Below are positions 3,485 through 56,245 of a stretch of 64,000 nt of DNA, in pieces. The DNA comes from Roseovarius indicus (lineage in GTDB: Bacteria; Pseudomonadota; Alphaproteobacteria; Rhodobacterales; Rhodobacteraceae), in NCBI RefSeq assembly GCF_008728195.1, contig NZ_CP031598.1, positions 2,604,001 through 2,668,000 of the forward strand. The letters are read 5' to 3'. The notes beneath the pieces were generated by a model, which ran no database searches, had not been told where the DNA came from, and saw nothing but the letters and a program-made list of their open reading frames with translations. Within the stretch, counting starts at the first letter, position 1. Each line of letters begins with the position of its first letter. The translations under genes and the position numbers were made by a program.

Positions 3485-4780
3485 TCAGCGCTTTTCGATA
3501 TCCACGTAGTCGCGCAGGGTGGCGCCCTGGTAGAGCTGGCGCGGGCGGCCGATCTTGAGTTGGGGATCGGCGATCATTTCCTTCCACTGCGAGATCCAGC
3601 CGACCGTGCGGCTGAGAGCAAAGATCGGCGTGAACATCGAGGTGGGGAAGCCCATCGCCTCGAGGATGATGCCCGAGTAGAAGTCGACATTCGGGAAGAG
3701 CTTCTTGTCGACGAAGTAATCGTCTTCCAGTGCGGCCTTCTCGAGCTCCTTGGCGACCTGGAGGGTCGGGTTGTCCTCGATGCCGAGCAGGTCGAGCACT
3801 TCGTCGGCCGACTGTTTCATCACCTTGGCGCGCGGATCGAAGTTCTTGTAGACCCGGTGGCCGAAGCCCATCAGGCGGAACTCGTCGTTCTTGTCCTTGG
3901 CGCGGGCGATGTATTCGGGGATCTTGTCGACCGAGCCGATCTCGCGCAGCATTTCGAGACAGGCCTGGTTGGCGCCGCCATGGGCCGGGCCCCAGAGACA
4001 GGCGATGCCCGCCGCGATACAGGCGAAGGGGTTGGCGCCCGAGGAGGAGGCCAGACGCACGGTCGAGGTCGAGGCGTTCTGTTCGTGATCGGCATGGAGG
4101 GTGAAGATCCGGTCCATCGCGCGGCTCAGGATCGGGTTCACCTCGTAATCTTCGGCCGGAACGGCAAAGCACATGCGCAGGAAGTTCGACGCGTAGTCGA
4201 TATCGTTGCGCGGGTACACGAAGGGCTGGCCGATGGAATACTTGTAGGCCATCGCCGCGATCGTCGGCATCTTGGCGATCAGACGGATCGAGGCGACCTC
4301 GCGCTGCCACGGGTCGTTGATGTCGGTCGAGTCGTGGTAGAAGGCCGACAGGGCCCCGACCACGCCCACCATGATCGCCATCGGGTGCGCATCCCGGCGG
4401 TAACCGCGGAACAGGAAGTGCATCTGTTCATGCAGCATGGTGTGGTTGGTCACACGATCCTCGAAATCCTCGAGCTGGGCCGCCGAGGGCAGTTCGCCGT
4501 AAAGCAGCAGGTAGCAGACTTCGAGGAAATGAGATTTTTCCGCCAGCTGGTCGATGGGATAGCCGCGGTGAAGCAGCTCGCCCTTGCCACCGTCGATGAA
4601 GGTGATGGTGCTGTCGCAGCTTGCGGTCGAGGTGAAGCCCGGGTCGTAGGTGAACACGCCCGCCTGCCCATAGAGCTTGCGGATGTCGATTACGTCGGGG
4701 CCGGCGGTTGGCGATAGGATCGGCAGTTCGTAGTCGGTACCGTCGATCGTCAGCGTCGCGGATTTGTTACTGTCAGCCAT
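3485..4780 (-). CDS. gltA: Citrate synthase
   Basis: Condenses oxaloacetate and acetyl-CoA in the TCA cycle. The 431 residues match the hexameric type II bacterial enzyme. Visible active-site segments include the histidine-rich HADHEQNAS, the GPAHGGANQ loop and the aspartate region NVDFYSGI, plus the FGHRVYKN motif. It has its own terminator and is followed upstream by gltX on the same strand. Confidence 0.97.
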
Positions 4781-4854
4781 AGGGGTACTCCCTCTTCGCG
4801 CCCGCGCGGAAATTCGCAGTCGGGCAGGTTTCTTTCATCTGGCCTTTCGAGAGG

Positions 4855-6264
4855 TCAACCTTTCTCGCAGGCGGCATCCCCGAGCCGGGCGAGGGATTCC
4901 TCTCGTCCCAGCACGAGCATCATATCGAACACGCTAGGTGTCGCAGCCCGGCCGGCCAGTGCGGCCCGCATCGGGCCCGCCAGCTTGCCGAATTTGGTAT
5001 CAATGGACTCGGCGAACTGCATGGCGGCAGCCTCCAATTCCTCACGGGTCCAAGTAGCATTTTGCAGATGCGGCGTCAATTGGGCCAGTATACCACGGGA
5101 TACATCGTCGAGGTTCTTCGCCGCCTTCTCGTCAGGCTCGATTGGCCGATCCGCCAAGATAAATTCTGCCTTTTCAAGGAGTTCCGGAAACGTCTTGGCC
5201 CGCTCCTTGAGACAATACATGCCCGCGGCGAGCAAGGCTGTCTTTGCGTCAGGCAAGGGCGGCTCGCCGGTGACCGCAAGGTAGGCCTGAAGCTCATGCA
5301 GCAGCGCAGCATCGTCGGATGCGGCGATGTGCTGGCCGCTGAGGTTGTCGAGCTTCTTGAAATCGAACCGGGCGGGCGATTTGCCGATGCCGTTGAGGTC
5401 GAACCAGTCCTGCGCCTGCGCATCGGTGAAGAACTCGTCGTCGCCGTGGCTCCAGCCCAGGCGGGCGAGGTAGTTGCGCATGCCCGCGGCCGGGTAGCCC
5501 ATGCGCTGATACTCCTCGACGCCGAGCGCGCCGTGGCGTTTCGACAGCTTCTTGCCGTCGGGGCCGTGGATCAGCGGAATATGGGCGTAGACGGGCAGGG
5601 GCCAGCCCATCGCCTGGTAGATCATCATCTGCCGGGCGGCGTTGTTGAGGTGGTCATCCCCCCGGATCACGTGCGTGACACCCATGTCATGATCATCCAC
5701 GGCGACGGCCAGCATGTAAACCGGTGTGCCATCGCTGCGTAACAGGACCATGTCGTCGAGCTGGTCGTTGCGGATGGTGACGTCGCCCTGAACCTCGTCG
5801 CGGATGACGGTGCTGCCGTCGCGCGGGGCCTTGATGCGGATGACATAGGGCGCATCCGGGTGGGTCGAGGGATCGGCGTCGCGCCAGGGGCTGCGGAAGA
5901 GGGTCGAGCGGCCCTCGGCGCGGGCGGCCTCGCGGAAGGCTTCGATTTCCTCCTGTGTCGAGAAACACTTGAAGGCTTCGCCCTTGTCCAGAAGTTCGCG
6001 CGCCACCTCGGCATGACGGTCGGCACCGGCGGCCTGGCTGACGGCCTCGCCATCGTGATCCAGGCCAAGCCATTCCAGACCGTCCAGGATGGCCTGCGTC
6101 GCCTCGGGGGTGGAGCGGGCACGGTCGGTGTCCTCGATCCGGAGCAGGAACTTGCCGCCACGCCCGCGTGCATAAAGCCAGTTGAACAGCGCCGTCCGGG
6201 CCCCGCCGATGTGCAGAAAGCCGGTGGGAGAAGGGGCAAATCGGGTGACGACTGTCTCGGACAT
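4855..6264 (-). CDS. gltX: Glutamyl-tRNA synthetase
   Basis: Class I aminoacyl-tRNA synthetase of 469 residues. The start at 6264 is chosen because the product then begins [20 protein letters not shown], the canonical N-terminus with the HIGH-type motif as HIGG. An open frame extends further upstream but reads as low-complexity. The KMSKS-type motif is KKLSKRHG. The upstream region is divergent with comEC. Confidence 0.96.
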
Positions 6265-6372
6265 GTCGGGCAGGGTCCTTTCTGGATTAACCTTTCGGTA
6301 ACGGTTTTGGGGGATAGCGAACGGATCAGTTTTCCATGACTGTCTATCGGCCCGCCGGAGGGGAAACAAGTC

Positions 6373-48809: not shown

Positions 48810-49984
48810 TCGGAATGACTGTCTGCTCTGGCATTGGCGCTCCTGAACTTTCCGCGCCGTGGATCGACTGGAAATACCAGTCGGAGACAGAGCCTTTCCC
48901 GGCAGCGGTTCTCGCCCATCGCTTTCCGGACGCCATCAACCTGGGCGACATGACAAAATTCGAGGAGTGGCCCGATGCAAATGTCGATGTTCTCTGCGGA
49001 GGAACACCGTGCCAGTCGTTCTCCGTCGCGGGACTTCGCAAGGGACTTGATGACCCGCGCGGAAACCTCATGCTCACCTATCTTGCCATCGCTCGACGCT
49101 ATCAGCCCAAGTGGCTGGTTTGGGAGAACGTCCCCGGCGTCCTGTCAAGCAACGGAGGACGGGATTTTGGTGCCCTTCTCCGGGGCTTGGGGGAACTCGG
49201 GTATGGGTTCGCCTACCGAGTGCTTGACGCTCAGTACGTGCGAACATGCGGCTTCGAGCTCGCTGTCCCGCAGAGACGCCGTCGTGTGTTCGTTGTCGGA
49301 TATCTTGGAGACTGGCGACGTGCCGCAGCGGTACTTTTTGACGGCGAAAGCCTGTCGGGGAATCCTCCGCCGCGCCGAGAAGAGGGGGAAAGACCTGCCC
49401 CCACAATTAGCGCGCGCACTAAAGGCGGTGGCGGACTTGGAACCGACTTCGATTGCGACGGAGGGCTGATCCCGCAGGTTTCTCCAGCAATGAAGGCACG
49501 TGACGCCAAGGGGCCTAGTAGCGATGGCGATGGCGATGGCTTGCCACTCGTTCCGGTCGCCATCCAAGAGCGCGCCGTAAGCGAGAACCCAGAGAACGGC
49601 CCGCAAGGTTCCGGTGTACGTCAGGACGGCAGCGCCTATACGCTGGAGGCGCGCAACAAGGTGCAGGCCGTAGCCTTCGACACCACCCAGATCACCAGCC
49701 CCGGCAATTACAGCCAGCCCAAGCCAGGTGATGCGTGTCACCCGCTCGCAGCCGGGGCGCATCCGCCTGCCATCGCCCGACCGTGGGCAGTGCGCCGTTT
49801 GACGCCCACAGAATGCCACCGCCTTCAGGGATTCCCCGACGACTGGTGCCGCATCCCTTGGCGCGGGAAGCCCGCAGACCAATGCCCGGACGGGCCGCAG
49901 TACAAGTGCCTCGGCAATAGCTGGGCGATCAATTGCGGGGAGTGGATTTTCGACAGGATCAAGATGGTGGAGGCCGCTGCATGA
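48806..49984 (+). CDS. DNA (cytosine-5) methyltransferase
   Basis: 392 residues. Motif I (MTVCSGIGAPE), motif IV GGTPCQSFSVAG with the catalytic Cys, motif VI ENVPGVLS, motif VIII QRRRRVFVVG and the C-terminal LGNSWA (motif X) are all present. The target-recognition region (about residues 180-310) is long. Probably anti-restriction. It overlaps the VRR-NUC gene by 4 bases. Confidence 0.93.
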   Translation: MIGMTVCSGIGAPELSAPWIDWKYQSETEPFPAAVLAHRFPDAINLGDMTKFEEWPDANVDVLCGGTPCQSFSVAGLRKGLDDPRGNLMLTYLAIARRYQPKWLVWENVPGVLSSNGGRDFGALLRGLGELGYGFAYRVLDAQYVRTCGFELAVPQRRRRVFVVGYLGDWRRAAAVLFDGESLSGNPPPRREEGERPAPTISARTKGGGGLGTDFDCDGGLIPQVSPAMKARDAKGPSSDGDGDGLPLVPVAIQERAVSENPENGPQGSGVRQDGSAYTLEARNKVQAVAFDTTQITSPGNYSQPKPGDACHPLAAGAHPPAIARPWAVRRLTPTECHRLQGFPDDWCRIPWRGKPADQCPDGPQYKCLGNSWAINCGEWIFDRIKMVEAAA

Positions 49985-50418
49985 ACCGCGTCGATAGGGA
50001 ATCCCCGATACAGATCCAGATCGTTGAGTACCTACGGTCTGTCCTTCCCGCAGGGTGCATGGTCCATCACTGCAAGAACGAAATCAACAAGCGCGGCAAG
50101 GGTATCGCGATTGAGCTCGCCAAAGCCAAACGCAAGGGCGCCATCACCGGGTTCCCTGACTTGCTGGTGCTGAACTACGCCAACGTAGGCCCGTGTTTTT
50201 TCGAGGTCAAGGCAGAGGGCAACTACGCCACCGATACCCAGAAGGAAGTCCACGAGCAGCTTAGGGCACTCGGATATCGGGTGGCTGTCGTGCGGTCTGT
50301 CGAGGACGTGCGGGAGAGCCTGCGGAAGTGGGCCGTTGGAACGCGCGAGATAACGAGCAATTGGCGGTCTGTCGGAGAGATTGCCGCCGAAATGGTCAAG
50401 GGGCAAAAAGATGAGTGA
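49981..50418 (+). CDS. VRR-NUC domain nuclease
   Basis: 145 residues of the PD-(D/E)xK superfamily VRR-NUC type. GFPDLLVLNYANVGPCFFEVKAEGNYATDTQKEVHEQLRALGYRVAVVRSVEDV gives the D..E-x-K core and the closing strand. Phage members are thought to process branched DNA in replication or repair. It may also pair with the adjacent methyltransferase; that is unproven. Confidence 0.85.
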   Translation: MNRVDRESPIQIQIVEYLRSVLPAGCMVHHCKNEINKRGKGIAIELAKAKRKGAITGFPDLLVLNYANVGPCFFEVKAEGNYATDTQKEVHEQLRALGYRVAVVRSVEDVRESLRKWAVGTREITSNWRSVGEIAAEMVKGQKDE

Positions 50419-50788
50419 ACAGTGGCTCGACAGCAAGGAAATAAAGAAAGCCTTGGTCGAGGACGGCTGGCGCTCACCGGACACCTATGACAACTTCTAC
50501 TGTACCGCGCCGTTATCGCCAGCCGTTTATTTGTTCTTGCTGCACGACGTGGAGAAAGAGTTCTACAGTAAGGCTCTTGTTGCCTACGTCGGCATGTCTG
50601 TTCAACTGGCATGCAGGTGGCATGGCCACGAGATTCTGAACGAAATCAGCGTGCCAGGATACTGGCCGATGCGATGGTTTAAGCCCACGCCCGAGCGCAA
50701 GCTTCGACAAGTCGAGCGGAAGTATATCCAGAAATTTGACCCAGCATGGAACGTCATCGGGCGCACGCGCGGGGTGGCATTGCAATGA
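50411..50788 (+). CDS. GIY-YIG-type nuclease
   Basis: 125 residues. The family pattern reads AVYLFLL (GIY position), AYVGMSVQLACRWHGH (YIG position with a downstream Arg), then a C-terminal ERKLRQVERKYIQKFDPAWN. The first motif is diverged. Role in phage DNA processing is likely but unknown. Overlaps neighbours on both sides. Confidence 0.65.
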   Translation: MSEQWLDSKEIKKALVEDGWRSPDTYDNFYCTAPLSPAVYLFLLHDVEKEFYSKALVAYVGMSVQLACRWHGHEILNEISVPGYWPMRWFKPTPERKLRQVERKYIQKFDPAWNVIGRTRGVALQ

Positions 50789-51243
50789 GTATACGCGCCA
50801 TGAAGTGGGCATACGGGCTTTTTGAGGTGTTAGATATCCCACCAGCGGAGCGTTCGGTGTTGCTGGCAATCTGCTGGTGGCACAAAGAGAAATCCGACGA
50901 GTGCGCGCCTGCGCAAGCCGAACTAGCTAAGATGACTGGATACCGTCGCCAGAGAGTGAATGAAGCGATTTCCAGCCTTGAAGGGTACGGCCTCATAAAG
51001 AGGGAGAAAACCAAAAGGTGCGGGCAATACACCTCATGCAGCTACCGACTTTTTGGCTCGATGAAGCGCCCAGCCATGTCCGGACGGGGGGACACGGCCA
51101 TGTCCAAAAAAAAGGACACGGCGCCCATGTCCGGACGGGGGGACACTATAAGGGGGAATATAAAAGGGGACTGCGACGAAAGTTTTAACGTTTTGGAATT
51201 TCCTGGCCAAGAAATGTTGAAAGCTGGTGGCCGCAATGTTTGA
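50785..51243 (+). CDS. Phage replication protein with winged helix (O-like)
   Basis: 152 residues. The N-terminal 90 form a winged helix (IPPAERSVLLAICWWHKEK, CAPAQAELAKMTGYRRQRVNEAISSLEGYGLIKRE) of the kind found in phage O and DnaD-type initiators. From about residue 98 it encodes a repeated MSGRGDT/MSKKKDT segment whose DNA is the iteron-like repeat. It sits just before the helicase and primase-like genes, fitting the lambda O position. Confidence 0.7.
   Translation: MSIRAMKWAYGLFEVLDIPPAERSVLLAICWWHKEKSDECAPAQAELAKMTGYRRQRVNEAISSLEGYGLIKREKTKRCGQYTSCSYRLFGSMKRPAMSGRGDTAMSKKKDTAPMSGRGDTIRGNIKGDCDESFNVLEFPGQEMLKAGGRNV
51076..51160. repeat. Three iteron-like repeats and AT-rich tract, candidate phage replication origin
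   Basis: Three copies of a 20-base unit, ATGTCC-N8-GGACAC, start at 51076, 51100 and 51127; copies 1 and 3 are identical, copy 2 has an A8 core. Each is itself an inverted repeat (TGTCC/GGACA). An AT-rich stretch follows. Iterons in an initiator gene followed by an AT-rich region is the layout of the lambda origin. Confidence 0.6.
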
Positions 51244-53650
51244 CCTTTTCGCCAAACCCGAGCCCCGCACCCCTCGCAAGCACCAGCGTCAGTCTATCGA
51301 CCGGCTTCGTCAATCTCTGGCTAGGGGATGTTCCCGTCCTTGCCTCCAGCTTCCGACAGGCGCGGGAAAAACCTTCGTCGCCTCGATGATCGTCAACGGG
51401 GCGCTGGCAAAGGGCAACCGGGTGGTGTTCACCGTTCCCGCCTTGAGCCTCATCAACCAGACGGTCGAGGCATTCGAGGCGGAGGGCGTTACGCAGATCG
51501 GGGTAATCCAAGCTGACCATCCCCGCACCGATTGGACCGCGCCAGTTCAAGTCGCGTCGGTTCAAACTCTTGCCCGGAGGGACCGTCCGGATTGCGAGGT
51601 GGTGGTGGTCGATGAGTGCCATATCGGTAGCAAGGTCATCTCCGAGTGGATGGCGGAATGCCCGGATGTCCCGTTCATCGGCCTGTCAGCTACGCCTTGG
51701 CGTCAGGGCATGTCCTCGGAATACGACGACCTGATCATCGGCGCCACGATGCAGGAGCTGATTGATGCGGGATTTCTATCTTCGTTCCGGGTTTTTGCCC
51801 CCGCGCACCCCGACCTTTCCGGCGTCAAGACGACCGCTGGCGACTTCAACCAGGGTCAACTTGGGGAGGTCATGGGCGAGGGCCAGATGGTGGCCGATGT
51901 GGTCAGCACGTGGCTTGAGAAGGGCGAGGCGAGGCCGACGCTTTGCTTCGCCGTGGACCGGGCGCACGCCAAGAAGCTGCAAGCCGATTTCGAGCGGTCT
52001 GGAGTGCCCACGGGCTACGTTGACGCCTACACCGACGAGGTAGAGCGGGCACTAGTGGCCCGGCGTTTCGAGCGTGGGGAAATCAAGGTTGTCTGCAATG
52101 TCGGTTGCCTGACCACGGGTGTTGATTGGGATGTGCGTTGTATCATTCTGGCGCGGCCAACCAAATCCGAAATGCTTTACGTCCAGATGATTGGTCGGGG
52201 CCTTCGGACAGCAGATGGCAAGAACGACTGCTTAGCATCTGGGACGCAAATTTTAACACAACGTGGGCCAGTACCGATTGAGAAAGTTTTGCTTTCTGAT
52301 AAGCTATGGGACGGACAACAATGGGTCAGTCACCAAGGTGTAATCAGCAAGGGAAAGCGACATGTCATCACGTACCAAGGGCTCACAGGGACGCCCGATC
52401 ACAAAGTCTGGACGGAGAAAGGGTGGCGCACCCTTGGGGAATGTGAACGCGAGAAAATCGCCATCATCCAGACCGGACTTGGTGGGCGTGAAATTCGGCT
52501 CCGTCCGGGTGATCTCCCCGGAACTGGAGTGGAGGGGCAAGCCTGGGGCGCGCCGGATATTTGTTCAAACCCGTTGCGATGGGTGTGGAGCAGAGCGGTC
52601 AATCTCTCTAGGAAATTTGGAGCGTGGGCGCACGAAAGGCTGTCGATCCTGCAATCAGCCTGTGCGTTTCCCAAAGTGGCTCTATCGGCGGATGCAGGCT
52701 GCGGAGCAGCGTTGCTGCAATCCGAGCAACGGTCGTTTTGCGGACTATGGGGGCAGAGGCGTTACTTTCGATTTTTCTTCTCCGGCGGAAGCGGCGCTTT
52801 GGGTTCAGTCGAACCTTGGTTTGCCGGAAAGCCCGAAAGCAGTGGAGATCGACAGAATCGACAACGACAAGGGCTATGCGCCGGGGAATCTTCGTTGGTC
52901 CACAGCGCGGCACAACAAGCTCAATCAGCGATCACAGTTGACGGCAAACATGCATCGCTTTCGAAGCGAGTATCCGGAAGTCAAGTATGCGGACGCTACG
53001 TTGAAGCGGATGATTGGGTTGGGAATGACCGATCAGCAGATATTAGAGCAGTGGGCAAAGCCTTCGGCGAAACCGAAAGGGAAGTATGGGACATTCTCAA
53101 CGCCGGACCCCGAAATTGTTTCACTGCTGAAGGACTCCTAGTCCACAACTGCCTCATCCTCGACCATGCCGACAACACGCTTCGGCTCGGGTTCGTAACG
53201 GATATTCACCACACCCGGTTGAAGGGCGGCAAGTGCGAGGAGAGAGCCGCACGGGAGAGGCAGGAGCCTTTGCCGAAGGAGTGCGCGGCCTGCGGGTACG
53301 TGAAGCCCGCCAAGGTTGCCAAGTGCCCATCCTGTGGGTTCAAGCCGGAACGTCAAACCGATGTGGAAATGGGTGATGGTGAGCTGATCGAGGTCAGGGG
53401 CGCCAAGCACCAGCCGACAAAGCAGGAAAAGCAAGACTTCTGGTCCGGCCTTTTGTGGATCGCCAAAGAGCGTGGCCGAAAGAAGGGTTGGGCTTCACAC
53501 GCCTACAAGGAGAAATTCAAGGTTTGGCCGCGAGGCCTGGACGACAACCCGCAACGCCCGTCTCAACAGGTCAAGAATTGGGTGAAGGCGAAAGACATTC
53601 GTTTCGCCAAAAGCAAGCAACGTCAGGAGGTGCGGCGTGCGGCAACGTGA
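51236..53650 (+). CDS. SF2 DNA helicase interrupted by an intein
   Basis: An 804-residue precursor from ATG 51236 (a GTG at 51227 is possible). The helicase extein has Walker A (QLPTGAGKTF), a DECH box (VVVVDECHIG), LSATPW, and motif VI QMIGRGLR just before the intein. The C-extein continues CLILDHADNTLRLG and has a four-cysteine zinc ribbon (CAACGYVKPAKVAKCPSCG). After splicing about 497 residues remain. It resembles phage DEAD/DEAH-type replication helicases. It overlaps the upstream gene and precedes the primase-like gene. Confidence 0.87.
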   Translation: MFDLFAKPEPRTPRKHQRQSIDRLRQSLARGCSRPCLQLPTGAGKTFVASMIVNGALAKGNRVVFTVPALSLINQTVEAFEAEGVTQIGVIQADHPRTDWTAPVQVASVQTLARRDRPDCEVVVVDECHIGSKVISEWMAECPDVPFIGLSATPWRQGMSSEYDDLIIGATMQELIDAGFLSSFRVFAPAHPDLSGVKTTAGDFNQGQLGEVMGEGQMVADVVSTWLEKGEARPTLCFAVDRAHAKKLQADFERSGVPTGYVDAYTDEVERALVARRFERGEIKVVCNVGCLTTGVDWDVRCIILARPTKSEMLYVQMIGRGLRTADGKNDCLASGTQILTQRGPVPIEKVLLSDKLWDGQQWVSHQGVISKGKRHVITYQGLTGTPDHKVWTEKGWRTLGECEREKIAIIQTGLGGREIRLRPGDLPGTGVEGQAWGAPDICSNPLRWVWSRAVNLSRKFGAWAHERLSILQSACAFPKVALSADAGCGAALLQSEQRSFCGLWGQRRYFRFFFSGGSGALGSVEPWFAGKPESSGDRQNRQRQGLCAGESSLVHSAAQQAQSAITVDGKHASLSKRVSGSQVCGRYVEADDWVGNDRSADIRAVGKAFGETEREVWDILNAGPRNCFTAEGLLVHNCLILDHADNTLRLGFVTDIHHTRLKGGKCEERAARERQEPLPKECAACGYVKPAKVAKCPSCGFKPERQTDVEMGDGELIEVRGAKHQPTKQEKQDFWSGLLWIAKERGRKKGWASHAYKEKFKVWPRGLDDNPQRPSQQVKNWVKAKDIRFAKSKQRQEVRRAAT
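52349..52354 (+). promoter_or_regulatory. Ribosome binding site of the nested endonuclease
   Basis: AAGGGA with a 7-base gap to the ATG at 52362, inside the intein reading frame. It decides the start of the nested gene. Confidence 0.55.
52362..53141 (+). CDS. HNH-type homing endonuclease nested out of frame in the intein
   Basis: 259 codons in the +1 frame relative to the intein. The N-terminus has GRPITKSGRRKGGAPLGNVN, a basic DNA-binding type tail. Then VGVKFGSVRVIS and a zinc ribbon with Cys 72, 75, 94 and 97. The nuclease core has YGGRG (129-133), VEIDRIDNDKGYAPGNLRW (161-179) and HNKLNQR. A C-terminal helix-turn-helix-like segment follows. This is the layout of phage HNH homing endonucleases. 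The start has its own AAGGGA site, and the TAG lies 8 bases before the intein end, so the gene is wholly within the intein. Confidence 0.88.
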   Translation: MSSRTKGSQGRPITKSGRRKGGAPLGNVNARKSPSSRPDLVGVKFGSVRVISPELEWRGKPGARRIFVQTRCDGCGAERSISLGNLERGRTKGCRSCNQPVRFPKWLYRRMQAAEQRCCNPSNGRFADYGGRGVTFDFSSPAEAALWVQSNLGLPESPKAVEIDRIDNDKGYAPGNLRWSTARHNKLNQRSQLTANMHRFRSEYPEVKYADATLKRMIGLGMTDQQILEQWAKPSAKPKGKYGTFSTPDPEIVSLLKDS

Positions 53651-54572
53651 TGACATTAGGGATTATGTCACGGGCAAGTGGCGCGGCATTCTGGCGAGTC
53701 TTGGCGTGCCGGATAGCGCTCTGAAAGACCAGCACGGGCCATGCCCGATGTGCGGCGGGCGTGATCGGTTCCGGTTCGACAACAAGGAAGGTCGGGGAAC
53801 GTATTTCTGCAACCAGTGCGGCTCTGGAGACGGCTGGAACCTCCTGATGAATTTCCGCGGCTGGAATTTTGCCGAGGCGGCTGACGAGGTAAGGGCTGTA
53901 TGCGGCAGGGTAAACCCCGAGCCCATACGCCAGGAGGCTAGCGACGAGCAGAAGCGCGAGCGACTGCGGGAATTGTGGAAAGCCAGCGTCCCCGTACAGA
54001 GGGGGGATGTTGTCGATCGGTATTTCCAATCCCGTGGGATTGATGAGCTGTCCTACCCTGAAAGCCTGCGGTTCTGCCCGAGTTGTTGGTATGCAGGGGA
54101 CAAGCACTATCCCGCATTGATCGGCGTTGTGTCAGACGCTGACGGCAAGCCAGTGACGCTCCACAGGACATGGCTTGCGCCGGATGGGAGTGGGAAAGCG
54201 CCCGAGGATGAAGTGCGCCGCATCATGCCGGGCAAGATCCCGGACGGTGCCGCAATCAGGCTTGGTGAGGCGGGTTACGCTCTTGGAATAGCCGAGGGCA
54301 TAGAAACCGCGCTGTCTGCCATGCAGATGTATGAATTGCCTGTGTGGGCGGTAATCAACTCAACGATGATGGAGAAGTGGGAGCCGCCTGCATCTGTCGA
54401 GGAACTGACCATCTTCGCCGACAATGACGCGAAATTCGGAGGTCAGAAGGCGGCTTATGCGCTGGCGCACAGGCTGTCCGTGAAGGGCCTATCGGTGGCG
54501 GTGAAGGTGCCCGGCGATGTTGGCACAGATTTTAACGACATGCTCAAGCTTAAAGAAAGGCTGGTGGCCTAA
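53637..54572 (+). CDS. Primase-like protein (zinc ribbon plus Toprim)
   Basis: 311 residues. The N-terminal zinc ribbon (CPMCGGRDRFRFD, CNQCG) is that of DnaG/P4-type primases. The C-terminal Toprim domain has IAEGIETALS and TIFADND. No helicase domain is attached; helicase activity may come from the adjacent SF2 gene. The start is GTG at 53637, overlapping the helicase gene by 14 bases. Confidence 0.85.
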   Translation: MRQRDDIRDYVTGKWRGILASLGVPDSALKDQHGPCPMCGGRDRFRFDNKEGRGTYFCNQCGSGDGWNLLMNFRGWNFAEAADEVRAVCGRVNPEPIRQEASDEQKRERLRELWKASVPVQRGDVVDRYFQSRGIDELSYPESLRFCPSCWYAGDKHYPALIGVVSDADGKPVTLHRTWLAPDGSGKAPEDEVRRIMPGKIPDGAAIRLGEAGYALGIAEGIETALSAMQMYELPVWAVINSTMMEKWEPPASVEELTIFADNDAKFGGQKAAYALAHRLSVKGLSVAVKVPGDVGTDFNDMLKLKERLVA

Positions 54573-54874
54573 TGCGACAGACACGAAACAGAACCCCACA
54601 CGCCCAAGAGCGCGCTTCTTTGGAGGATCGGTCAAAGATCCTAGCCGCAATCGCCAAGGCAAACCACACTCTCGGCCCGACCCATATCAACGCCATCGGT
54701 CGCCGCTTGAAGATGTGCCACACCCGCGTCAGTAGGGCCATGACCCATCTGCACCATGCCGAGATGGTCTTCCATGACCCGAACCCGGAAGACAGCAACT
54801 GGCATTTGACCGAAAAGGGCTGGGCTGCCGTTGGCCAGACCCCGCCGATATGGAAGCGGGAGGTAGCGTCATGA
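54572..54874 (+). CDS. Winged-helix phage protein
   Basis: 100 residues. RSKILAAIAKANHTLGPTHINAIGRRLKMCHTRVSRAMTHLHHAEMV with a following beta hairpin (NWHLTEKGWAAV) is a winged helix. Likely a DNA-binding regulator. Its ATG overlaps the primase-like stop. A 17-codon frame (54871-54924) follows it with an overlapping start; I do not count it. Confidence 0.6.
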   Translation: MRQTRNRTPHAQERASLEDRSKILAAIAKANHTLGPTHINAIGRRLKMCHTRVSRAMTHLHHAEMVFHDPNPEDSNWHLTEKGWAAVGQTPPIWKREVAS

Positions 54875-54950
54875 CCCCCGACCAGCGCGACCAGATGACA
54901 CGTAAAAACGACAGCAAAACATAGCACCACAGGCAAAGAGAGGGCAGGAT

Positions 54951-55523
54951 ATGATGGAATACCGCATAGGCCAAATCGTCCCATTCGAGCAGAGCAGGGG
55001 CGTCACGGGCGGGAGGCTGGCAAGGCCCCGATGGCATGCGTTGACAGTTCGATCGGGGAAGGAGCGCGCTACCTGCGAGCACCTCAAGCAGAAGGGCGTT
55101 CATGCCTGCTTCCCAGAGAGGGAAAAGTCATGGGTGATCCGCGGCAAGCGCCATCAGCGGAAGTATCCCGTCATTGCAGGGATCGTCTACGCCAAATTCA
55201 AGCATGAGCCGAATTGGGATATCCTTAAAGCACGCAACCTGATCACGGGCGTTTTCAGTTATGGCGTCACGCCGATTGCTTTGCCGGATGCAATCGTTCG
55301 CGCCGTTATGGGGCTGCCCAGCCGGGAAGAGGAGTTGGCACAGGCACGGGCGGATCTTCTCAGGGTTCGTGTCGGGGATAGGGCGGAGGTTGCGTCAGGC
55401 CCGCTGGCGGGCGCCGTTGTCGATGTTCGCAAGGTGGAAAAGGGCAGGGTGTGGTTTGAAACCCTCACCGGAATAAAAGGCGAGACATCCCTGCCTAGAC
55501 TGGTGCGGAAAGATGTTGATTGA
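54951..55523 (+). CDS. NusG/RfaH-like transcription factor
   Basis: 190 residues. The N-terminal NGN-like domain has WHALTVRSGKERATCEHLKQKGVHACFPEREKSWVIRGKRHQRKYPVIAGIVYAKF. The C-terminal KOW motif is VRVGDRAEVASGPLAGAVVDVRKVEKGRVWFETL. It is the last gene before the tRNA-like element and head genes. NusG paralogs alter elongation, so a late-gene antitermination role is a reasonable inference. The start could be the second ATG at 54954. Confidence 0.82.
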   Translation: MMEYRIGQIVPFEQSRGVTGGRLARPRWHALTVRSGKERATCEHLKQKGVHACFPEREKSWVIRGKRHQRKYPVIAGIVYAKFKHEPNWDILKARNLITGVFSYGVTPIALPDAIVRAVMGLPSREEELAQARADLLRVRVGDRAEVASGPLAGAVVDVRKVEKGRVWFETLTGIKGETSLPRLVRKDVD

Positions 55524-55806
55524 TCCGATGGCATGCGGTAGGGTCTTCGCAACCCGGCGGGCACATAACCGCCGAAGGGGAAGGCCCATCGCTCGAACCG
55601 AGTTGAGAGCCGATGTTGGGTCGGGCGCCCGAAAGGCCAAATTCGCGCTGAAGGCAAGAGCCAAAAAATTGCGCGAAGTCGTAGGGATTATTACGAGAAA
55701 AGCAATGCGGGAAGGTGTTCCATCACCATTCCCGCATCTATCCACCTATGAACATGTGAGGTTCAAAGATGGCTGGGAAAACTCTAGCAGGACAATGGAT
55801 GTCTGA
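55513..55806 (+). CDS. Hypothetical basic phage protein (97 aa)
   Basis: The ATG at 55513 overlaps the NusG-like stop. The product is very Arg/Lys/Ala rich and could bind nucleic acid or be spurious. It overlaps the HNH gene start by 38 bases. Confidence 0.35.
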   Translation: MLIDPMACGRVFATRRAHNRRRGRPIARTELRADVGSGARKAKFALKARAKKLREVVGIITRKAMREGVPSPFPHLSTYEHVRFKDGWENSSRTMDV

Positions 55807-56245
55807 AAATGGCATCAAGTGGAAAAAACACGGGCGTTGGCCAAAAACCAGAGATCCCAACAATCCGAGCAGCAAAACAAAGCGGTGTAGGCGCGGAAAG
55901 ATACTTGGCGAAAGGGTGAAGTGCCCAATTCGAGTATTTGTAGAAGAAAACAGACATGCTGCACGCGTGGAGTGTATATTCGTACCAGCCGCGCAAAGAG
56001 ATGTTCCCGCCCAGATGCCTTTCTGTGGCAGGAGTATCAGTGCAGCAAGATACATGCTGCTTTTGACGAGAGGGGCGCCTAAGTCGGACGGAATGGTAAC
56101 CCGCCACCTTTGCGGCAATGGGCATCTTTCGTGTGTGAACCCCAGTCACCTCGTTTGGGGCACGACCGGCGACAATATATCAGACGCCAACAAGCACCGG
56201 AAAGCCGGTGATGACGCTCAGGATCGTATTAACGCGATCGACTGA
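55769..56245 (+). CDS. HNH-type endonuclease with zinc-binding loop
   Basis: 158 residues. The C-terminal CGNGHLSCVNPSHLVWGTTGDNISDA is the zinc-binding loop and Asn-His segment of HNH_3-type homing endonucleases. GRSISAARYMLLLTRG precedes it. Start MAGKTLAGQW at 55769 with GAGG upstream. A free-standing homing endonuclease that may move within phages. Confidence 0.75.
   Translation: MAGKTLAGQWMSENGIKWKKHGRWPKTRDPNNPSSKTKRCRRGKILGERVKCPIRVFVEENRHAARVECIFVPAAQRDVPAQMPFCGRSISAARYMLLLTRGAPKSDGMVTRHLCGNGHLSCVNPSHLVWGTTGDNISDANKHRKAGDDAQDRINAID

Follow-up and report, generated by a model that had tools for sequence, protein, structure and literature searches.

How can a single stretch of DNA code for an intein in one reading frame and for a homing endonuclease in another, and what becomes of the two products? 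The question is raised by a 64,000-nucleotide stretch of the Roseovarius indicus genome (the window), in which a helicase gene carries an intein of 307 codons (52229..53149, forward strand, as for all features of this gene given below), and an HNH endonuclease gene of 259 codons lies entirely within that intein in the +1 frame (52362..53141). A large intein usually carries its endonuclease as part of its own polypeptide, and splicing sets it free. In the present case the coding sequences overlap, but the two activities are predicted to reside on separate proteins. We consider it highly probable that the helicase intein, which is predicted to splice, is accompanied by a separately translated endonuclease that would spread the element. 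The overlapping layout recurs in many phage replication genes, which makes it likely that the two proteins are made separately.

The helicase gene is a single open frame that includes the intein (51227..53650). It encodes 807 amino acids (aa) if GTG 51227 is the start; the database entry has 804 aa, which fits the alternative start ATG 51236. The protein matches phrog_16 (DNA helicase, 8.5e-86) and Pfam ResIII, DEAD and Helicase_C, as an SF2 helicase. The intein sits between a D codon and a C codon, at what we take to be helicase motif VI. Its first residue is C at 52229, its last residues are HN at 53149 and the next residue is C; it opens with CLASGTQILTQRG and closes with FTAEGLLVHN. Four segments of the insert, which we take to be splicing blocks A, B, F and G, were located in the helicase frame. 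Block A (CLASGTQILTQRG, 52229..52267) is assigned from sequence, block B (GLTGTPDHKVWTEKGW, 52379..52426) from sequence and invariant T and H residues, and blocks F and G together (REVWDILNAGPRNCFTAEGLLVHN, 53078..53149) from 74% identity to 23 relatives and a predicted local distance difference test (pLDDT) score of 92-96.

The residues C1, T55, H58 and N307 are present in the window and invariant across 46 aligned members of the family; they supply the N-terminal nucleophile, the T..H pair of block B and the C-terminal N of an intein, and the next residue, for which C, S or T is expected, is C in the window. The AlphaFold model of the intein predicts a confident Hint fold plus a linker of about 195 residues of low confidence. 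That linker, intein residues 85-280 (52481..53068), is free of stops in the intein frame and carries the endonuclease in the +1 frame. From these residues and the predicted fold, the insert probably splices as a protein. An earlier note on this DNA, made from the letters alone, had claimed that blocks A, B, F and G are intact in the helicase frame, and sequence, relatives and structure models all confirm it. When the intein-frame protein was compared with viral contigs there were three pattern matches, none of them confirmed, and no phage matched the intein at the DNA level. Positions 123-182 of phrog_26005, a group of unknown function, match intein residues 25-84 (8.9e-12), so that phrog_26005 seems to contain intein-bearing proteins.

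The nested gene has its own ATG, preceded at a distance of 7 nt by AAGGGA (52349..52354), a possible ribosome-binding site with a 4-nt match, AAGG. Its product matches phrog_374 (HNH endonuclease) best, at 3.9e-27, and four more PHROGs named HNH, restriction or endonuclease VII at less than 1e-7; Pfam and NCBIfam gave no match up to an E value of 0.1. Fifty-two homologues were found. The nearest is 86% identical across the full length of the window's endonuclease, P0003-P0007 are 68-86% identical to it, and four of the first eight are also 259 aa long, which supports the assigned start. A zinc-ribbon-like part (52575..52652) contains C72, C75, C94 and C97. When 51 sequences were aligned, search rows P0053 and P0054 being excluded, each of these four residues was conserved in 90% or more. 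In the HNH-type core (52842..52931) D164, R165 and N176 are invariant and W179 and N185 are at least 90% conserved in the same alignment. The AlphaFold model of the endonuclease has a mean pLDDT of 85, lower at the first 30 or so residues, in parts near 181-190 and at the end; strands are predicted at 161-165 and 177-181 and a helix at 182-189 within the core. The positions, frame and length of this open reading frame (ORF), its AAGGGA and ATG, and the zinc ribbon and HNH-type core had all been described in the earlier note, and all were borne out. The endonuclease is single-copy in its genome, and one weak further match was found among 198 genomes of the host's family.

Over most of the overlap only one of the two frames is predicted with confidence, the other giving a stretch of low confidence. 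The DNA of block B, when read in +1, codes for the N-terminal tail of the endonuclease, which is modelled with low confidence. Matters differ at the 3' end: there the DNA of blocks F and G up to 53141 doubles as the endonuclease tail and both are conserved.

The absence of stops from the helicase frame is far from what chance would give. When the endonuclease was recoded synonymously with the codon usage of the exteins, the helicase frame acquired a mean of 12.6 stops (standard deviation 3.1) compared with the actual 0, and none of 20,000 recodings left it open. Permutation of the gene's own synonymous codons gave a mean of 12.5 stops, again with none of 20,000 open. The third frame of the window's endonuclease has 10 stops, 7.6 being expected, ie there is no avoidance there. 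The helicase frame had been described as staying open for about 190 codons with a chance of about 1 in 10,000; it is indeed free of stops, but that length is too short, the frame being open across the whole endonuclease gene, and the chance estimate was too mild.

Comparison of change in both frames, which the earlier note had put forward as a check, showed that the fast codon position switches to the endonuclease's third position and back again. Among 135 pairs of the 309-aa polymerase group, 58-99% identical, the intein's third position is fastest in codons 1-60. In every bin from 61 to 285 the intein's first position, which is the endonuclease's third, is fastest; there is a near tie at codons 286-300, and the intein's third is fastest again at 301-309. 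Four closer polA pairs display the same switch, except that the second position is fastest in one of the 15 bins that span 61-285; at codons 286-300, which encode both tails, all three positions change slowly. The 262-aa group (six pairs) switches likewise in codons 51-200. For members whose endonuclease is in the +2 frame the fast position is the intein's second, again the endonuclease's third: the switch was found in codons 61-260 for the pair SO-1 and vB-SeS-01 (83% identical), in codons 76-275 for L044 and L048, and in seven of nine bins between codons 101 and 325 for L136 and L147. The window was compared with 23 relatives, made up of 18 viral loci of the helicase-type clusters and five of the eight nested genome loci described below. 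Identity was 53% in the N-block, 45% in the endonuclease core, 27% for the core DNA read in the intein frame and 74% in the C-block. Changes in the endonuclease core stood at 0.64 at the endonuclease's third position, compared with 0.46 and 0.36 at the others.

Two pairs of viral loci differ by natural in-frame deletions, ie there are two cases in which the endonuclease was lost without loss of the intein. The loci L111:4422-4826 and L113:4186-5121, whose contig names have one sample number in common, match at 99.6-100% identity around the intein, and the difference between them is exactly 177 codons. With that loss the endonuclease match is gone, and the intein frame and both blocks are kept. 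The second pair, L115:3501-3872 and L116:3501-4427 (91-92% identical), shows the same pattern with a difference of 185 codons. The joints have overlaps of 4 and 9 bases, and whole codons are missing in each case.

The frame of the endonuclease was then surveyed across the family. Viral contigs were scanned with the intein N-block, blind to the endonuclease, and the best 80 of at least 581 confirmed stretches were kept; they are therefore those nearest to the window's block and not a random draw. With annotated phages and the window there were 129 N-block hits, which gave 105 distinct inteins with both blocks after removal of 19 identical copies and omission of five hits. Three of the latter (L079, L091 and L143) reach contig ends and the C block is absent; the other two (L013 at 2710 and L138 at 227) are weaker upstream hits in genes already holding a family intein, and are possibly inteins of another kind. 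The C ends of L075 and L076 were set by pattern and by eye. An HNH gene or remnant lies out of frame in 96 of the 105, in +1 in 84 and in +2 in 12, and none of the 105 has one in frame or on the opposite strand. The remaining nine are all mini-inteins of 147 aa or less, and seven of the 96 are truncated remnants. The subset that is new, found only by the N-block, comprises 66 distinct inteins: 55 in +1, four in +2, seven mini-inteins and none in frame.

Searched with the endonuclease, the viral contigs gave 61 loci. The host frame is open across it in 27, in ORFs of about 610-1290 aa, some of them cut by contig ends. The other 34 served as a control: they have no host frame over the endonuclease, and no intein frame there either. 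Relatives of the window's endonuclease among phage HNH endonucleases of the phrog_374 kind therefore also occur as free-standing genes, at these 34 of the 61 loci. Among 21 loci found with the endonuclease in genomes, eight are nested, all in +1. In the protein database 412 proteins match the intein-frame region; all 120 of these that were listed carry both blocks, with a median intein length of 309 (range 146-687), and none of the 120 has an HNH profile match in frame, where the same profile recovers 53 of 53 endonucleases. Homologues with an in-frame endonuclease, which the earlier note would have taken as refutation, were accordingly absent from the 96 members, the eight nested genome loci and the 120 listed proteins. 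By contrast, a mycobacteriophage methylase met in the N-block search has an intein-like Hint_2 segment with LAGLIDADG_3 further on in the same frame (7e-5 and 7e-4, both under the Pfam cut-offs).

The arrangement, sought in relatives, was found in many phage DNA polymerases and helicases, so that, beyond what the earlier note described, the window's copy is one of a large family. The junction sequences align into 14 clusters, and the window's helicase site holds 15 loci; in Methylobacterium platani that site is occupied by a 258-aa member. Six of nine hosts tested by Pfam are family A DNA polymerases, with several insertion points, and the hosts of L003 and L005 are DnaB-like helicases. A terminase label for the host of L100 was dropped, there being no Pfam or PHROG family match. 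L001 has two family inteins in one DNA polymerase gene (3835-4812 and 5353-6273), both with an out-of-frame HNH gene or remnant, and two per polymerase gene are also present in L002, L021, L108 and L113. Helicase alleles without the intein align across the junction without a gap in two phages and three other genomes, and the empty site is present in helicases of the same genus. On whether nesting arose once or more than once, in a FastTree phylogeny the members at PolA site 2, together with L100, fall among free-standing HNH genes; that tree included L016, L023 and L050, labelled as free though copies of nested loci, which were later removed from the set. An approximately unbiased test did not reject a single clade of nested genes (p 0.224).

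As to how the endonuclease is made, an ATG or GTG lies close to where the domain begins in all but one of the 89 nested genes of full length, ie in 88. The best start candidate lies a median of 48 codons from the start of the intein (range 25-117), and at codon 44 in the window. A ribosome-site match of at least 6 nt was found at 39 of the 88 nested starts, a count that takes the best of a few candidates, compared with 21 of 1,350 control ATG or GTG codons of the N-exteins in the same relative frame. This enrichment favours translation as a free protein but is not proof of it. The internal starts with strong ribosome sites enriched in the family, together with the two natural deletions, make it the best reading that the endonuclease is produced free and that homing is uncoupled from splicing. 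The helicase precursor would be translated and the intein would excise itself, and ribosomes initiating within the same mRNA would produce the endonuclease, which may cut helicase genes lacking the intein, repair then copying both frames together. In the helicase frame the element encodes two Hint halves joined by a long linker, on which the chief apparent constraint is to be stop-free; read in the other frame, the linker DNA is for the most part an endonuclease gene under purifying selection. Splicing and homing would thus be divided between two polypeptides with a common coding stretch, and an intein that loses the endonuclease by deletion remains as an in-frame mini-intein.

Ribosomal frameshifting out of the intein, which would make the endonuclease as a fusion with the first intein block, could also account for two coding frames that overlap on one mRNA, with block B right at the start of the endonuclease. 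We think it unlikely in view of the starts and strong ribosome sites just described. Many members also have a stop in the endonuclease frame shortly upstream (in the window that frame opens six codons before the ATG), and the endonuclease frame itself varies between members, being +1 or +2. Nor is it likely that the nested ORF is an untranslated relic which persists because the intein frame is kept open. Decay is expected of homing genes, and the truncated remnants and the inteins without an endonuclease are what it would leave; in most members, however, the endonuclease frame is the conserved one, with changes concentrated at its third position. The window's gene is intact, with homologues 68-86% identical over its full length, and neither the window's copy nor its homologues have lost the residues of the zinc ribbon and the HNH core.

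It is very improbable that the insert is a group I intron that houses an endonuclease gene and is removed at the RNA level. HNH genes are common in phage introns, and the record of Sodalis phage SO-1 (L075, NC_013600.1) labels its copy a type I self-splicing intron; the sequence of that copy has the family N-block and an open host frame. There were no Rfam matches in window positions 50000-55000 up to an E value of 1, which speaks against the RNA structure of a group I or group II intron, and the host frame is open through the insert, which carries the Hint residues and the predicted fold. That two compensating sequencing errors shifted an in-frame endonuclease, named as a possible refuter in the earlier note, is barely credible when the same layout occurs in many separate assemblies, at the same and other sites, with codon-position signatures of selection in both frames.

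Several points weigh against separate translation and homing of an overprinted endonuclease. Taking the best of a few start candidates favours the nested genes somewhat, and the window's own ribosome-site match is weak, at 4 nt. The ribosome-site motif is present in five of nine mini-inteins compared with 44 of 77 others; since mini-inteins keep it as often, the motif may belong to the intein and have been co-opted. By the same figures there is no support for retention of the K/R-E-V codons as a ribosome site for the endonuclease. Across the 96 members the host frame has no stops where 955.6 are expected (the third frame has 1,032, with 768.8 expected), a result that is partly one of construction, because the search required the two blocks to share an open frame; stops cost no N-block hit, and three ran off contig ends. 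The codon-position test around the window uses diverged relatives, and searches of the PDB with the endonuclease model and profiles gave no trustworthy structural match. The empty alleles of the same genus have L, not C, after the site. In Salmonella phage SS3e (L186, NC_006940.2) the host frame is broken in the intein, the sole such record of those opened; its annotation runs polymerase, HNH endonuclease, polymerase, and the break is either real or a sequencing error.

We lean towards a more general statement, that a large class of phage inteins, in DNA polymerases and two kinds of helicase, has its endonuclease only as a gene overprinted in +1 or +2 on the linker and never in frame. In that class two separate proteins would be the standard architecture, and homing and splicing would evolve and be lost independently. 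The class would have escaped notice because gene callers discard every frame but that of the host gene. Of 11 annotated phage records opened in which the host frame is open and the nested gene is substantial, two annotate the latter, ie there is a blind spot in annotation. As the activities overlap in DNA but are predicted to be on separate proteins, the expression, evolution and loss of homing could be studied apart from splicing. If the reading is true, bacteria and phages would also offer here a clear example of long genes that overlap on the same strand, each frame having a predicted function and its own codon-position signature.

PI-SceI and the Mtu RecA intein resemble the present element in having a Hint domain, an endonuclease between blocks B and F and an insertion point within a conserved motif of a gene for replication or repair. 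Their endonuclease is part of the same polypeptide, whereas that of the window, like those of all 96 members with an HNH gene or remnant, is in another frame, with its own start and stop in the window. Dassa et al. in 2009 reportedly described split inteins whose halves are separated by a free-standing endonuclease gene. In these, too, splicing and endonuclease are on separate polypeptides, but intein and host gene are in two ORFs, in contrast to the continuous host frame of the window (the single ORF 51227..53650) that the endonuclease overlaps. P45 and P46 of APSE-1 and gp38 and gp39 of SO-1 belong to the same family, and the nested HNH gene is listed there as its own coding sequence; the features in these records name no intein with an out-of-frame endonuclease.

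The closest published likenesses are the ShiLan domain and the Pacc40 insertion, in which an HNH gene lies out of frame in a phage gene that is open through the insert; for the ShiLan domain the phage gene is a methylase. According to the article (Arsenault, Gosselin and Gogarten 2025, PMC11855218; PMC9957025 is its forerunner) the insert has no splicing motifs, is expected to stay in the methylase, and no ribosome-binding site was found there. The window's insert differs in having splicing blocks and a predicted Hint fold, and strong ribosome sites are enriched in its family. On overlapping frames in actinobacteriophages the conclusion of PMC11855218 points to two works, a preprint on the inteins of these phages that speaks of 'non-canonical architecture', and the 'Non-canonical inteins' of Gorbalenya (1998). 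No other paper on an intein with splicing blocks and an out-of-frame endonuclease was found among titles and the beginnings of abstracts, in a search outside which lay preprints and most subscription journals, and there is a real risk that part of the finding is already published.

The helicase gene is placed in a prophage by its neighbours, which include a replication initiator, a primase, an antiterminator, a large terminase, and head and portal proteins. Hidden HNH genes were sought in two methyltransferase genes of the same prophage and none was found. In the +1 frame of a C5 methyltransferase gene 171 codons are open (48954-49466), and 48975-49469 matches phrog_16143, named DNA methyltransferase, at 3.5e-9; this may reflect a PHROG built on the wrong frame or another overlap. 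The prophage also has a second HNH-type gene, which is free-standing (55769-56245). It matches Pfam zf-His_Me_endon at 3.7e-5, under Pfam's cut-off, and phrog_1872 at 7.9e-12.

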